Shown: in pieces, positions 8,692 to 21,785 of the stretch
Layout of the letters: each line of letters begins with the position of its first letter
How positions within the stretch are numbered: position 1 is the first letter of the stretch
DNA from: Nitrospirota bacterium
GTDB lineage: Bacteria; Nitrospirota; Thermodesulfovibrionia; Thermodesulfovibrionales; Dissulfurispiraceae
Assembly: GCA_040752355.1 (NCBI GenBank)
Contig: JBFMHE010000012.1
Location: forward strand, 1 to 64,000
DNA length: 64,000 nucleotides
Reading direction: 5' to 3'
The notes under the pieces: generated by a model
The model's database searches: none
Told to the model about the DNA's origin: nothing
The model's input: the letters and a program-made list of their open reading frames with translations, nothing else
Program-made: the position numbers and the translations under genes

Positions 8692-10326
8692 TTAGCGGGG
8701 AGTGATCCAGTCGCCGGCGGGTCTGAAGGTCTTATCGACGAGATCGACGGTGATGATATGGGCGCCCAGTGCGCCGGTGCGCCTGTTCGGGGCATAGGAT
8801 ATGCGCGGCGTCACGCCGGTCTCGAAGCGGTAGAGCCCCTCGAGCGCCTTCACCAGCTTTTCTCTCGTCAGCTCCCTGCCGCCCGACTTCAGCCCCTCTA
8901 CCAGGATGCGGGCAGCGGCATACGCGGAGATCTGAGCCGCCTTATGGTCCGGAGAAAGGCGATACTTCTCGGCAAGCAGGGCGAATTCGACGGCCCCCGG
9001 TCCATGGAGATCGGAGGGCGCTGTCGGCGAGGAGAGGACTATCTTCTCATGGAACGAGAGCGGCATGGCGAAAAGCTCTTTTGCGCTCTGTGCCCCTGCA
9101 AGAAGCACGAGCGGCTGCCACTGGACGCGGTCCGCTTCGGCCAGCACGGACTTCAACGCCTCCGGCGACCCGAAAAAGAGCAGGGAGTCGACGCCGGCCT
9201 GCTGCAGCTCCCGGACTGTCCGGGCAGCATCGGGCCGACCGCCTCCGAACCCGATGACGCTGACAGCGGCAAGCCCATGCTTCCGCAGCTGCTCCCGCGC
9301 CGCCTCGATAATGCCGTGCCTGGTCCCGGTGCTGTCGTACACAACGGCCATTGCCGGCCTCTTCTGCCGCTGCGTTGCGTAATCGACCAGCGCGCGCGCC
9401 TGGTCGCCCAATCCTGAGAAGACATAAAAGGTGGCGTTGTTCAGCGTATGCGGGTCCTGCGGGAAAAGCGTAAGAGGACCGATGAACGGCACGCCCTCGG
9501 CTTCGACGAGCGCCGCGACCTCGCCTTCCGCACCGGCAAAGAGGCCAGCAGCGAGTGCGAAGACGTCGCCCTCCTCTATCATGGTACGCGCTTTTACGAC
9601 CGGCGCAGTCGCGCCGGCGCCGTATTCGGCTGCCACGAGCTCGAGCCGCCGGTTATACAGCCCTCCCTGCTGATTGATCTCCATGAAATACGCCTCGACC
9701 GCGGCCCTCATGGCAGCGCCGGCGCCGGTGAGCTGACCGTGCGAAGGCAGGAGCGTACCGATCCGTATGCCCGAAGGGGAGACGCCCGGATCGGAGAGGC
9801 TGCCGAGCCGCTTCATATACGCGACGAGGTCCGCCATGTCCTGTTTCGAGAGCAGGTAGAGCGGCATCGAGGGGTCGAGTCGGTTTCCCGCGGGATCGAT
9901 GCCCTCTGCGATAGACCTCGCGAGGGTCTCCCCGGTGTAGGGGGGATGCGTCCTGCCGCTCTCGTGCCGCACGCCGTAGGGCTTCGTCATATGCTCCCAG
10001 GTGACGTTGGTGGGGATGACCCCGCTCTCGGGCCTGCCGAGCCCGTCCATGCCGTGGCAGCCTGCGCAGGGCATGGCAGAGCCGGGCGCTTCCATCAGAT
10101 CCTTCCCGATATAGGCCCTGATCTTTTCGCCGGAGGGGCTCTCGGTCCTTATATAAATATGCCTGCCCCGCTTCTCCTGCGGGGTCAGGGAGCCCGCCGC
10201 CGAGAGAGAGGCGGAACAGAGCAGCCCGGCGCATAAAAAGACAGCGGCAATGAGGCAGAGGGGGCGGGGAATGGTATGCCCCGCCCCCTCTCTCCGCTCA
10301 TTTTGATAGATGCTCTTATTCATCAT
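8692..10326 (-). CDS. Cytochrome c / periplasmic binding protein fusion (first copy)
   Basis: The 544-residue exported protein has a signal peptide (hydrophobic at residues 24-43) and then a small cytochrome-c-like domain with one CAGCH heme site at residues 87-91 and downstream methionines (DPSMPLYLL) as possible axial ligands. From about residue 175 to the end it matches the Leu/Ile/Val-type periplasmic binding protein fold (IRIGTLLPSHGQLTGAGAAMRAA at its start, with GGLYNRRLELV following). No permease or ATPase lies nearby, so it is unlikely to serve an ordinary ABC importer. It is the last gene of the giant-oxidase operon and overlaps the upstream SCO gene by 4 bases. A paralogue, also directly after a SCO gene, is at 19862-21541. 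A redox-coupled ligand sensor or electron carrier is inferred. Confidence 0.8.
   Translation of the reverse strand: MMNKSIYQNERREGAGHTIPRPLCLIAAVFLCAGLLCSASLSAAGSLTPQEKRGRHIYIRTESPSGEKIRAYIGKDLMEAPGSAMPCAGCHGMDGLGRPESGVIPTNVTWEHMTKPYGVRHESGRTHPPYTGETLARSIAEGIDPAGNRLDPSMPLYLLSKQDMADLVAYMKRLGSLSDPGVSPSGIRIGTLLPSHGQLTGAGAAMRAAVEAYFMEINQQGGLYNRRLELVAAEYGAGATAPVVKARTMIEEGDVFALAAGLFAGAEGEVAALVEAEGVPFIGPLTLFPQDPHTLNNATFYVFSGLGDQARALVDYATQRQKRPAMAVVYDSTGTRHGIIEAAREQLRKHGLAAVSVIGFGGGRPDAARTVRELQQAGVDSLLFFGSPEALKSVLAEADRVQWQPLVLLAGAQSAKELFAMPLSFHEKIVLSSPTAPSDLHGPGAVEFALLAEKYRLSPDHKAAQISAYAAARILVEGLKSGGRELTREKLVKALEGLYRFETGVTPRISYAPNRRTGALGAHIITVDLVDKTFRPAGDWITPR
10257..10291 (-). repeat. Perfect 13-bp hairpin inside a coding region
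   Basis: Arms 10257-10269 and 10279-10291 are perfectly complementary and GC-rich, beginning AGAG and ending CTCT. The hairpin falls at about codons 12-24 of the cytochrome-binding-protein gene, between the start codon and the signal peptide. There is no U-tract. It resembles the hairpin at 13542-13581 in the same operon. Confidence 0.7.
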
Positions 10327-10943
10327 TTCTCATCCGCCAGGGAGAGGAGCGTCTCGGCGATCTTCGATGCCGGAGCGCTCGGCAGCATCTTGATCCAGTG
10401 CCCTGTCTTCAGATTGCCCATGAGCATGACCGTCAGGTGCGACCCGGGCTCCGGATGGATGTTCCCGAGCTTGCGGTTGATGGCAGCGATGTCCTCTTTC
10501 TCTCCCGTGACGAAGAGCCATCCCTGCTGCGGCTCGAAGACCTTGGCGTAATATCTGATCGCTTCGGGCGTATCTCTGCCGGGGTCCACGTTCAGCGACA
10601 GGAGGAGGATATCCTTTCCGAGCCGCTCGCCGAGCATCTTCTGCACCTCGGTAAGCCGCGACAGCGCAGGCGGACAGACCGTGGTACAGCGGATATAGAA
10701 GAAGTGAATCAGTACGGTCCTGTCTTTCAAAAGATCGCTGTAGAACCGCACCTCGTTGCCTTCATGCGTGACGACCGGAAGGTCGGTGAAGTAGCGGCGG
10801 TTCGCGTCCTCACGGGAGATGTGCAAGCCCGCTGCACCGGCTGCGGTTGCGCCGCCGCCTTCTTCCCCGGCGAGACTCCTGCACGGCGCCAGGCTGACCG
10901 CCGCAAACAAAAGGATCGCCAGCAGCGCAGACCGCCGGATCAT
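10323..10943 (-). CDS. SCO1/SenC copper chaperone (operon, second SCO)
   Basis: The 206-residue product has a signal peptide and a thioredoxin-like SCO fold. The copper-binding CTTVCP motif has cysteines at residues 86 and 90, and the conserved distal histidine sits in a GSHLTVMLMG segment. SCO proteins deliver copper to CuA-type or other copper enzymes and can reduce their cysteines. The ATG at 10943 is chosen because it overlaps the upstream SCO stop as ATGA; the longer upstream extension has no signal-peptide character. It also overlaps the downstream cytochrome-binding-protein gene by 4 bases. Copper loading of the giant oxidase in this operon is the likely job. Confidence 0.88.
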   Translation of the reverse strand: MIRRSALLAILLFAAVSLAPCRSLAGEEGGGATAAGAAGLHISREDANRRYFTDLPVVTHEGNEVRFYSDLLKDRTVLIHFFYIRCTTVCPPALSRLTEVQKMLGERLGKDILLLSLNVDPGRDTPEAIRYYAKVFEPQQGWLFVTGEKEDIAAINRKLGNIHPEPGSHLTVMLMGNLKTGHWIKMLPSAPASKIAETLLSLADEK

Positions 10944-11584
10944 GATCTTCCTTTCTGCTGAAGCGCTGCGCTCTTCCGTTCCTCGATGAGGGCCGCGATA
11001 TGCTTCATGAGCTGCCTGGGCCCGGCAAAGCCGTAAAAACGCTTCCATCCGGTTTTATTATCGCCGATGATCGTCATGACCGGGTGCTCGTCGATCTTGA
11101 GCGAATAGGCGTCGAGCCCGAGCAGCACTCTGCTCAGGTTGTCCCGGTCTCCGGTAAGGAAGACCCATCCCGGCTTCGCCTTCTGTTTGCGGGCGAACTC
11201 CTTCAGCCGCAGCGGCGTGTCGGTCCGCGGATCGACGCTCAGGGAGACGAGCACCACCTCCCTGCCGAGGTACTCACCGAGCAGCTCCTGGAGCTCGACG
11301 AAGATATAGATGAGGGCCGGGCAGACGGTGGTGCAGGCCGTATAGAAGGTGTTGATCACCACGATGCGGTCGCCTATCACCTCGCTCCTGAACTTCACCT
11401 TCCTGCCGTCCTGGTCGAGGAGCTCCAGATCGAGGAGCTCGACCTTCACCAGCTCGGGGTCTTTCACGCGGGACGGCGTTTTGGCAGAGGCATCGCCGAA
11501 CACCATAAGAGCGATGATCAGTGCAGCAATATAGCCGGGCGCCTTTCGGCACTTCATCATTACGCGGGTCCGCATCGCCTTCAT
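10940..11584 (-). CDS. SCO1/SenC copper chaperone (operon, first SCO)
   Basis: This 214-residue SCO-family protein has an N-terminal signal or anchor segment (about residues 17-33), the CTTVCP copper motif at residues 84-89, a SLSVDPRTDTP segment typical of the fold, and the distal histidine in a DEHPVMTI segment. It starts a few bases past the beta-propeller gene, with AAAGGAAAG upstream, and its stop overlaps the next SCO gene. Two adjacent SCO genes that differ substantially in sequence suggest division of labour, for example one for copper transfer and one for thiol reduction, but that is inference. Confidence 0.88.
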   Translation of the reverse strand: MKAMRTRVMMKCRKAPGYIAALIIALMVFGDASAKTPSRVKDPELVKVELLDLELLDQDGRKVKFRSEVIGDRIVVINTFYTACTTVCPALIYIFVELQELLGEYLGREVVLVSLSVDPRTDTPLRLKEFARKQKAKPGWVFLTGDRDNLSRVLLGLDAYSLKIDEHPVMTIIGDNKTGWKRFYGFAGPRQLMKHIAALIEERKSAALQQKGRS

Positions 11585-18829: not shown

Positions 18830-19038
18830 GACGGATGCCATAGATGACGCGAAAGGGGAGGGGAAAACGTACAATCGCTTTAGCCGTATTTCACTTTGAC
18901 CCGTTCATTTTAACGCGCCCGGCGGAAAATAAAAAATCAAAAAGAAAAATGCACAATTAAGGACTCCTTATCTTCGATTTTTTCTTTTGATTTTTGCTCT
19001 CTCTCCTCTTCGCGTTATGGTAGAATGCTTTGAAAATA
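18830..19038. other. Intergenic region with an A/T-rich inverted repeat
   Basis: Between the two divergent oxidase-related operons I see an imperfect inverted repeat of about 19 bases (18931-18950 and 18976-18995). It is A-rich on the left and T-rich on the right, and could form a hairpin on either strand. No gene is apparent, and no sigma-54 site faces rightwards. Confidence 0.4.
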
Positions 19039-19221
19039 AGAGTCCCTAACGAAATGAAAGAGCTTGGAGTCGGATGAGGTATAGTATGTGGAGCGGTATC
19101 AGCAGCCCGAGCGAAGTCATGGATGACGAAGCGGGCTGGTGCCTCGGAGGTCGCATCGACCGAGAATGAGCGAACATACTGTGCCTCGTCTGACTCCCCT
19201 CCTCATTCCGTTAAATGCTCT
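19039..19221 (+). repeat. Palindromic repeat element, copy 1 (183 bp)
   Basis: The ends of this element are inverted repeats of roughly 50 bases, both starting AGAG. Their 24-base core (19073-19090 region and its partner near 19174-19196) differs only at positions that would still pair as G-U in RNA. An internal segment (19142-19166) forms a smaller hairpin, CTCGG...CCGAG. A related element in opposite orientation is at 21541-21785. The two bracket the SCO and cytochrome-binding-protein genes. It looks like a MITE-like or structured-RNA repeat; no transposase is present. Confidence 0.7.
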
Positions 19222-19253
19222 AAGTTCGGTCATCCGCTGCGAAAGAGGTGTGT

Positions 19254-19865
19254 ATGGTGAAGTTTGTGCTCGTACTGTTTTTGCTTGCGCTCCCGTTAAG
19301 GGACCAGTGCGGTGCAGCCGCCAGGGGCGCTGCCGATGAAGCACTCCGGCAAGAGGCCAAAGGAGCCAAAGGGAAATATCTCCGCACGATAGAGGATTAC
19401 CGGGTCCCGAATGTGACGCTCCTGAACCAGGACGGAAAAAAGATAAAGCTCCGCTCCTTTCTCGATCAGGGCAAGCCGGTGATCATCGATTTCATCTTCA
19501 CGACCTGCACGACCATATGCCCCGTCCTCTCGGCGGGGTTCTCCCATCTCCAGGACCGGCTCGGCGACGGGGCGAAGTCGGTGCAGCTCGTCTCGATATC
19601 AATCGACCCTGCGTACGACAGGCCCGAACAGATGAAGGCGTACCTCGCACGCTACAATGCGGGAGCGGGATGGGACTTCCTCACCGGGAGCAGGGAGGAC
19701 ATCGCCCTCGTGCTCAAGGCCTTCGATGCAGCGGTCGCCGACAAGATGTCGCACCTCCCCCTCTATATTCTTCGCGGCCCGGAGTCGGACGAATGGGTCC
19801 GCATCAAGGGTTTGATCAGCGGCGCCGAGCTCATGCGCGAGCTCGGGAAGGTGCAGAAGAAATGA
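19254..19865 (+). CDS. SCO1/SenC copper chaperone (rightward operon)
   Basis: The 203-residue product has an N-terminal hydrophobic signal (residues 2-15), the copper-binding CTTICP motif with cysteines at 85 and 89, the SISIDPAYDRPEQ segment of the SCO fold, and a distal histidine in MSHLPLYIL. The ATG at 19254 has AGAGGTG close upstream; a GTG at 19248 is an alternative. It overlaps the next gene as ATGA. It is only moderately similar to the two SCO genes of the leftward operon, so this SCO plus cytochrome-binding-protein pair is probably an old duplication of that module. Confidence 0.87.
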   Translation: MVKFVLVLFLLALPLRDQCGAAARGAADEALRQEAKGAKGKYLRTIEDYRVPNVTLLNQDGKKIKLRSFLDQGKPVIIDFIFTTCTTICPVLSAGFSHLQDRLGDGAKSVQLVSISIDPAYDRPEQMKAYLARYNAGAGWDFLTGSREDIALVLKAFDAAVADKMSHLPLYILRGPESDEWVRIKGLISGAELMRELGKVQKK

Positions 19866-21541
19866 GAAATCAGCCATTCTCCCGGGCAGTGCCGCCGCTC
19901 GTTCTCTTCCTCTTCGTCATGTTTTTCTTGTCCGCCCCTGCGATAGCGGATAAGGATGCAACGATAGCCGGGCATTCGCCGGAGGAAGCGCTCCGCCTCG
20001 GCGAGGCGATGTACGCGAAGGGGCTGCTCCCTTCCGGCAAGCCGATGAGCGCCGTTCTCCAGGGCGATCTCGTGGTGAAAGGCACGATGGTCACCTGCGC
20101 CAACTGCCATATGCGGAGCGGCCTCGGCTCGGTCGAGGGGGGAGTCCTCACGCTCCCGACCAACGGAGCGCTGCTCTACGCTCCTCTCAGGAGCAGCCGC
20201 GACCTCCCGGGAATCGGCATGGGGCGGGGAGAGCTGAAGTATCCCAGGCCTGCGTATACCGATGCGTCTCTTGCAAAGGCTATCCGCTCAGGGGTGGATG
20301 CAGCCGGACGGATAATGGAGGAGACGATGCCGCGCTATCTCCTCGACGACCGGGAGATGGAGATCCTGGTCTTCTATCTGAAGAACCTCTCGTCGAAGCC
20401 CTCGCCCGGCGCATCGGGCGACTCGATACGGCTCGCGACGATCGTAACCGAGGGCGTAAGCGATAACGAGCGGAGGGCAATGGTCGATCCCCTTGCGGCA
20501 TATATACGGCAGGAGTGGAATGCGAACCTGACGGTGCTCTCGATGACCACGAGAGAGAAGACCTACCGCCCCGTCTCGCTCGATATATGGGAGTTGAAAG
20601 GTCCTCCCGAGACATGGAGGGAACAGCTCGAGGCCTTCTACAAGAGGGAGCCGGTCTTTGCTCTCATAGGAGGGATAGCAGCTTCCCCCTGGCACCCTGT
20701 CCACGGCTTTTGCGAGGAGAACAGGATACCGTGCATTCTCCCCATAACCGATCTGCCGGTGGTCTCGCAGGGCGACTGGTACACGCTCTACTTCTCGAAG
20801 GGATACCACCAGGAGGGCGAGGCTGCTGCGAACTACCTCGCCCACGTCCTCGATCTGCCGCAGGACAAGGAGGTCGTCCAGGTGTTCAGGAATAAGGACG
20901 AGGGAAAGGCCCTGGCAGAGGGATTTGCCGGCGCATGGAAGAGGCAGGGCAGGACCGGTCCCAGAGATCGTATGCTTTCCCCGGGGGAAAGAGCGGACAG
21001 GCCCTTCTGGAAAGAGCTTGCGGCGCAGCACCGGAACGCGGTCTTCCTCCTCTGGCTCGGCCCCGGAGACCTGAGCGGCGTCGAAGCGCTGGCCGACACC
21101 GCAGACCGTCCCTCGATCGTCTTCGCCTCATCGACGATGCTCGGCAACGACTACGCGGCGCTCCCCGACGCTGTCCGGGATTTCGCTCTCTTGACCTATC
21201 CCAACCGCCTCCCCGAAGAGAGCGCCGGCGCTCTGTTCTCCGTGGAGCAGTGGCTGGGGGCGAAAAAGATACCGGTGACCGGCATCGCGACCTCGTCGAA
21301 GGTCTTTCTCCTTACGCGCGCCCTGTCGAGGGTGATGATCGCCATGAAGGGACACTTCTACCGCGACTATTTCCTCGATCTCTTCGATATGCTCGAGGAC
21401 CAGACCACGGCGGTCGCTGCCTATCCCGTGCTCAGCTTCGGCCCCGGGCAGCGCTACGCAGCGAAAGGCTGCTATGTCGTCAAGCTCACCAGGGGAGAGC
21501 AGCCGAAGATCATAAAGCAGAGCGACTGGATCATATACTAA
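19862..21541 (+). CDS. Cytochrome c / periplasmic binding protein fusion (second copy)
   Basis: This 559-residue exported protein has a signal peptide (residues 11-29, ending AIA) and a cytochrome-c-like domain with a CANCH heme site at residues 79-83, followed by tyrosine- and methionine-containing segments (METMPRYLLDD region). From about residue 180 it is a two-lobed periplasmic-binding-protein-like domain (IRLATIVTEGVSDNERR onwards, with VFALIGGIAASPW in the middle). The first copy at 8692-10326 has the same domain order and also follows a SCO gene. I chose the ATG overlapping the SCO stop; longer versions upstream run through the SCO gene in another frame. The stop codon touches the end of repeat copy 2. 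Confidence 0.8.
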   Translation: MRNQPFSRAVPPLVLFLFVMFFLSAPAIADKDATIAGHSPEEALRLGEAMYAKGLLPSGKPMSAVLQGDLVVKGTMVTCANCHMRSGLGSVEGGVLTLPTNGALLYAPLRSSRDLPGIGMGRGELKYPRPAYTDASLAKAIRSGVDAAGRIMEETMPRYLLDDREMEILVFYLKNLSSKPSPGASGDSIRLATIVTEGVSDNERRAMVDPLAAYIRQEWNANLTVLSMTTREKTYRPVSLDIWELKGPPETWREQLEAFYKREPVFALIGGIAASPWHPVHGFCEENRIPCILPITDLPVVSQGDWYTLYFSKGYHQEGEAAANYLAHVLDLPQDKEVVQVFRNKDEGKALAEGFAGAWKRQGRTGPRDRMLSPGERADRPFWKELAAQHRNAVFLLWLGPGDLSGVEALADTADRPSIVFASSTMLGNDYAALPDAVRDFALLTYPNRLPEESAGALFSVEQWLGAKKIPVTGIATSSKVFLLTRALSRVMIAMKGHFYRDYFLDLFDMLEDQTTAVAAYPVLSFGPGQRYAAKGCYVVKLTRGEQPKIIKQSDWIIY

Positions 21542-21785
21542 GAGCTCCTAGCAGAATGAGCAAAGAGAGTCAGACAAGGCACAGTACATTCGCTCAACTG
21601 CCACCCCAAAGATCTTCGATCTTCGGGGACCCCGATTCTCGGTCGATGCTACCTCCGAGGCTAGGGCAGCTCGGAATCGAGTCGTACCGACCCGCTCCGC
21701 CATCCTGGCTCCGCCCCGGCTGCCCATGCCGCTCATATACTATGCCTCGTCCGAATCTAAGTTCTTTCATTTTCTTAGGAGCTCT
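21541..21785 (-). repeat. Palindromic repeat element, copy 2 (245 bp, inverted)
   Basis: Both ends read AGAGCTCCTA inwards and continue into inverted arms of about 55 bases related to copy 1 at 19039-19221, but in the opposite orientation. The inner segment resembling CTCGGAGGTAGCATCGACCG is shared with copy 1. Extra palindromic sequence (around 21605-21640) accounts for its greater length. No target duplication is evident. The left end coincides with the stop codon of the upstream gene. Confidence 0.7.

Follow-up and report, generated by a model that had tools for sequence, protein, structure and literature searches.

Dispersed MITE-like elements in a Nitrospirota genome point to an uncatalogued mobile structured RNA

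MITEs that yield RNA are already known from Coxiella burnetii, where QMITE1 and QMITE2 share with the family analysed here a copy number of about 50 per genome, terminal inverted repeats, a strong predicted RNA fold and the lack of an internal transposase (PMC5896051). That report describes QMITE1 as unique to C. burnetii and the relatives of QMITE2 outside it as only short; in contrast to both, our family has a branched core common to several phyla, different ends, covariation and a G-U bias. A 2024 survey (Narunsky et al. 2024; PMC11109978) listed 250 mobile or repeat structured candidates, and its example MRSC-65-2 resembles our family in its dozens of copies per genome, its occurrence in diverse phyla, its covarying structure, its inconsistent orientation and its probable nature as a selfish element. 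However, MRSC-65-2 consists of one long stem bearing UYCCGG repeats, whereas our family is branched and carries GAGCGG / CCUCGGAG / CGAGAAUGAGCG; this comparison covers one example, and one of the remaining 249 MRSC candidates may correspond to our family. The TwoAYGGAY motif (Weinberg et al. 2010; PMC2864571) consists, by its name, of two hairpins with AYGGAY loops, and the loops of hairpins H1 and H2 in our family are often AUGGAU-like. That motif is recorded from human gut, gamma-Proteobacteria and Clostridiales. A high-affinity Csr/Rsm site is an ANGGAX hexaloop placed directly on a stem (PMC4005645). Csr/Rsm small RNAs such as RsmZ are not known as mobile repeats, whereas our family is mobile and lacks GGA loops in many copies.

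In the window, by which we mean the whole stretch of 64,000 nucleotides analysed (Nitrospirota bacterium, contig JBFMHE010000012.1, positions 1 to 64,000), two elements, E1 and E2, enclose a SCO1/SenC gene and a gene for a cytochrome c plus periplasmic-binding protein (Table 1). A sequence-only reading had reported them as an inverted repeat pair, and we recovered this pair as a 52-nt match between 19039-19090 and 21734-21785 (81%), together with inner matches of 30 nt (90%) and 27 nt (96%). Both elements are long, imperfect palindromes around an asymmetric middle part. The body of E1 (19040-19220, GAG...GCTC) is flanked by TAA direct repeats at 19037-19039 and 19221-19223 and lies in the gap separating a divergent multicopper-oxidase gene from the SCO gene. 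E2 contains two additional hairpin modules, M1 GGGTCGGTACGACTCGATTCCGAGC and M2 GGGGTCCCCGAAGATCGAAGATCTTTGGGG, and its start on the plus strand coincides with the stop codon of the cytochrome/binding-protein gene (TAA, 21539-21541). RNA folding on the tabulated strands gave z-scores of -7.17 for E1 and -6.36 for E2, equalled by none of 200 shuffles, and was weaker on the opposite strands (-4.91 and -4.54). On an alignment neutral between G-U and A-C, the arm mismatches comprised 4 G-U, 2 A-C and 1 other in E1, and 4 G-U, 2 A-C and 6 other in E2. The earlier statement that nearly all arm differences preserve G-U pairing thus fails for E1 and E2 alone; it survives as a bias across the family (see below). 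An apparent core-less remnant elsewhere in the window has the same kind of 3' end as E1 and E2 and adjoins SCO paralogues at about 10383-11431; covariance model R1 gives no match to it.

Table 1. Elements of the family in the window, with positions counted from its first letter
Feature	Positions	Strand	Description
E1	19039..19221	+	5' arm, core and 3' arm; R1 match, 138.7 bits
E1 core	19066..19197	+	R1 match; comprises the inner arms, hairpin H1 GUCAUGGAUGAC and hairpin H2 GGUCGCAUCGACC
E2	21541..21785	-	Longer copy; R1 match, 83.3 bits
E2 core	21566..21758	-	R1 match
Apparent remnant of such an element, without core	10249..10318	+	Read by eye; palindromic arms ending GCTCATTTTGATAGATGCTCTTA, core deleted

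Further copies, which the sequence-only reading had proposed to seek, are present both in this genome and in its relatives. BLASTN searches of the genome itself returned 49 and 65 places. R1, which was built from 26 of its copies and comprises 137 positions and 48 pairs, recovered about 50 folded-strand copies (E<=1e-5), among them E1 and E2; this count excludes two weak direct-strand matches (E 0.001 and 0.004) and reverse-strand shadows. In 22 of the 26 copies, the named strand folds better. Copies follow a modular order of arm, GAGCGG, H1, optional hairpin inserts, CCUCGGAG, H2, CGAGAAUGAGCG and arm, in which the conserved module is formed by a long stem, a GAGCGG / GAGCG(G/A) internal loop, H1 and CCUCGGAG-H2-CGAGAAUGAGCG, and the most constant part is the GAGCGG / CUCGGAG / CGAGAAUGAGCG core. 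Several arm types surround this core in the one genome, and the H2 stems are wholly different among copies (for example, GGACGGC/GCCGUCC, GGCAAAC/GUUUGCC and CAAGGC/GCCUUG). In four copies (L449, L450, L451 and L452), H1 holds nested extra hairpin modules (AAAGTCGTAGACTTT, AAAAAGACGTTGTCTTTTT), as if the RNA grew through hairpin insertion. Two long palindromes of the same genome (L464:1937-2150 and L467:1976-2190), each a single copy among the loci compared, have other structured middles and an AGAG-type MITE end on one side.

As E1 and E2 are inverted around exactly two genes, they had also been likened to the ends of a mobile cassette, a 2.7-kb unit carrying the SCO and cytochrome/binding-protein genes. 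This interpretation did not hold up, and we consider it very improbable. Identity between E1 and E2 is 82%, whereas both have closer relatives elsewhere in the genome (91.5% between E1 and L005, 91.8% between E2 and L012), indicating that they are independent insertions. Copies within 3 kb of each other form five pairs, slightly more than expected by chance (2.0, p 0.047), and these are direct (three) at least as often as inverted (two). In addition, no copy was linked, within 1.5-kb flanks, to the SCO homologues of this genome or of two relatives.

Pairing is strongly conserved among the copies. Over the 48 pairs of R1, 98.0% of cells were paired in the 26 copies from this genome, and 15 pairs were altered on both sides; pairing was as high in 0 of 500 shuffles and fell to 32-39% when the partner was slid. 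In the 66 copies of a related genus with three species (g13), 93.2% of cells were paired in an alignment that was fitted to the model and therefore leans towards it. Here, changes on both sides affected 36 of the 48 pairs and 592 cells, again with 0 of 500 shuffles as high, and slid controls reached at most 43.1% paired and at most 137 both-side cells. The covariance model suggested as a check thus revealed conserved pairing in this genome as well as in g13, and the condition named as refuting the earlier reading, a lack both of further copies and of conserved pairing, did not arise. Long DNA hairpins can keep their arms matched via template switching, so that covariation of the arms alone is ambiguous and a G-U bias is the better sign. 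In a model-free count pooled over four sets, the arm mismatches were 351 G-U to 110 A-C (75:33 in 36 elements of this genome, 63:13 in 53 of 60, 106:21 in 65 of 65 and 107:43 in 85 of 97 elements, 7 and 12 weak-arm elements having been dropped from two sets), and the g13 alignment gave 165:51. Because equal counts would be expected otherwise, the pooled ratio argues for strand-specific selection. Together, the conserved pairing, the changes on both sides and the G-U bias support the earlier suggestion of selection for RNA structure, and, judged from sequence, selection seems to act on one strand of the core module as RNA.

Some features would also be expected of inert MITE palindromes whose arms are matched only by template switching during replication (quasi-palindrome correction) and which have no RNA function. 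Many copies have near-perfect arms with copy-specific outer sequence, and core-less deletion copies occur. In one copy (L016:1485-1730), perfect matching of the arms continues for about 12 bp into the sequence beyond the usual end, an outcome expected of template switching. However, inert palindromes predict a 1:1 ratio of G-U to A-C mismatches, and across phyla the core nucleotides are near-invariant although the stems turn over; we therefore regard this explanation as improbable.

Mobility, in contrast to the cassette, was borne out in three settings. In g13, orthologous loci with about 80-90% DNA identity differ in the presence or absence of the whole unit with its arms. None of four empty sites (L293/L306, L286/L351, L287/L349 and L289/L347) contains a palindrome, which rejects insertion into pre-existing palindromes, and a clean target duplication was not found at them. 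The L287/L349 insertion separates, as read by eye, smpB from ssrA (tmRNA) and precedes a TATAAT that resembles a -10 element. At two further g13 loci, the core lies in the reverse orientation (L307/L343) or the same place is occupied by a different core type (L302/L311). In Desulfobacterales CG2_30_60_27 (G406), both of the inverted ends GTAACTATCCAG...CTGGATAGTTAC were present in 10 of 15 copies examined, of which five had a perfect 8-bp duplication (shuffles: mean 0.51, maximum 3) and a sixth had one of 9 bp. In the genome of the window, TWA stands on both sides of 14 of the 26 copies and is identical in 12 of these 14; taken over all 26 copies, the flanking trinucleotides match in 12, a modest excess (p 0.016).

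The ends of the elements vary. Terminal inverted repeats are found in the genome of the window (AGAG ends), in G406 (GTAACTATCCAG ends) and in most copies of Desulfospira, where they are of a third kind, GCGGTTCTCAAAA...TTTTGAGAACAGC; fixed ends were not seen in g13. One core is thus combined with at least three end types among lineages, and the occurrence of the same module between unrelated ends argues for a portable module rather than a part of one transposon family. The ends might belong to IS5/IS1031-, IS66- or IS630-like IS families, a possibility that we do not use as evidence. A search of the genome of the window by end pattern and flanks returned only small or truncated copies and no transposase or autonomous partner with these ends, and we accordingly call the elements MITE-like. 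A linked gene was rejected, as even the most widely shared protein cluster within 2.5 kb reached at most 9 of the 119 named loci. At two g13 loci (L293:2948 and L339:1501), a second repeat core (CCGATGCGGATGAC.GGCATAAGA) lies within palindromic arms, and at L339 it is fused to the 3' half of the E1/E2 family as a hybrid.

Strand asymmetry alone cannot distinguish RNA from single-stranded DNA. A structure acting as single-stranded DNA in replication or transposition, similar to IS200/IS605, REP/RAYT or integron attC, would fit it equally well, with G-T wobble mimicking selection on RNA, and would also fit palindromic arms with copy-specific outer sequence. Orientation relative to genes can be read in more than one way. 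Among co-directional neighbours, called with a simple ORF caller, the folded strand was antisense rather than sense in a ratio of 29:10 in g13 and 36:12 in the named genomes, and 7:7 in the genome of the window. Outside this genome, such an antisense bias is unexpected for an mRNA element acting in cis and implies one of two things, loss of sense insertions through purging or production of the RNA from its own strand; under the single-stranded DNA explanation, it could reflect the replication strand. However, covarying internal hairpins with conserved loops exceed the needs of a hairpin recognition site, and the 8-bp duplications in G406 are unlike single-stranded DNA transposition. Moreover, Y1_Tnp, although detected in 62 of 80 genomes of the order, is absent from the element-bearing genomes G022 and G299, which rejects RAYT as sole mover, and by coordinates its matches in the genome of the window do not adjoin R1 copies. 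Single-stranded DNA is thus an unlikely basis for the conserved structure. Integron attC sites were rejected as well, the GTTAGAC-like ends being confined, by eye, to copies from the genome of the window. The elements also resemble the layout of a retron msr, with a stem-enclosed non-coding RNA and AGC following the first arm. However, RVT_1 was not found in six element-rich genomes (G000, G012, G022, G046, G009 and G272), largely refuting a retron or group II intron remnant, and the target duplications are of the DNA-transposon type; an element driven by reverse transcriptase has a negligible probability.

After exclusion of copies with stems shorter than 3 bp, the H2 loop contained GGA in 43 of 43 g13 copies, on 19 distinct stems, and in 39 of 48 copies from relatives in the order, on 28 stems. 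The same was true of 7 of 7 copies in Latescibacterota, 8 of 9 in Desulfobacterota, 16 of 16 in Desulfospira and 28 of 39 in the genome of the window, whereas for other named Nitrospirota the figure was just 44 of 118, and the CA(N)GGANG form was found in none of five copies from Patescibacteria. E1 and E2 have one GGA hairpin each, and neither H2 contains GGA; H1 of E1 (GUC-AUGGAU-GAC) fits the ANGGAX hexaloop. Persistence of (A)(N)GGA(U) loops on many different stems favours protein binding, with a Csr/Rsm-type protein as the favoured candidate. We tentatively suggest, from these loop sequences, that the RNA may bind such a protein in many lineages, though not universally.

The family is widespread. 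DNA matches were obtained in 14 of 40 genomes and R1 matches in 20 of the 31 genomes of the bacterial family, with up to 92 per genome on both strands (both counts include the genome of the window). The pattern CCTCGGAG-N8-38-CGAGAATGA was detected in 82 of the 395 phylum genomes, mostly of the same order, and the reversed-pattern control gave 0; the 82 include at least seven genomes (G080, G085, G109, G238, G248, G328 and G346) whose matches do not look hairpin-like and are probably due to chance. A scan of named genomes returned at least 119 stretches, two of which (L215 and L224) are likewise probably due to chance. Outside Nitrospirota, record titles among the matches listed name Desulfobacterota (Desulfospira joergensenii DSM 10085, Desulfurivibrio sp. 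AMeS2, Desulfobulbaceae, Desulfobacterales and Desulfarculaceae), Latescibacterota, Gemmatimonadota and Patescibacteria (Parcubacteria/Spechtbacteria); these records are mostly metagenome bins, in which contamination is possible. A longer pattern gave 1 to 34 copies in each of 20 such genomes. D. joergensenii DSM 10085 (16 exact-pattern copies) and Desulfurivibrio sp. AMeS2 (9) are records without a MAG label. Viral contigs, phages and plasmids yielded no match, and carriage by phages or plasmids was rejected on these searches. None of the 4227 families of Rfam 15 scored above its gathering threshold, with only chance-level rows by E-value, and 12 copies compared with Rfam 15 had no match at E<=1 beyond such rows. 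In the literature outside subscription journals and supplements, we found no description of the motif or of mobile CsrA-type repeats. Overall, this points to an uncatalogued mobile structured RNA.

The element combines dispersed copies with target duplications in two genomes, sites that are occupied in one sister species and empty in another, and a conserved branched fold with strand bias. E1 and E2 are probably independent copies of this MITE-like DNA element, which spans about 180-250 bp, is non-autonomous and carries a conserved branched RNA module. In the model that we favour, a transposase encoded elsewhere would recognise the ends and move the element in trans, and its middle would be a conserved RNA module selected on one strand. 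This module would be portable, sitting within unrelated end sequences in different lineages, and would bind a protein, most likely of the Csr/Rsm type. More speculatively, and in our view doubtful, a portable RNA, bearing in many lineages a pair of Csr/Rsm-type hairpins, could spread among phyla inside unrelated MITEs, its 30-100 copies per genome acting as a sponge or cis-decoy that would rewire a global regulator or protect the MITE. The common view of bacterial MITEs is that of passive palindromes; in this family, a single branched RNA core lies within different transposon-like ends in several phyla. The core combines strong compensatory change with near-invariant unpaired bases and occurs in two named records without a MAG label, which makes the RNA function of a mobile element directly testable.
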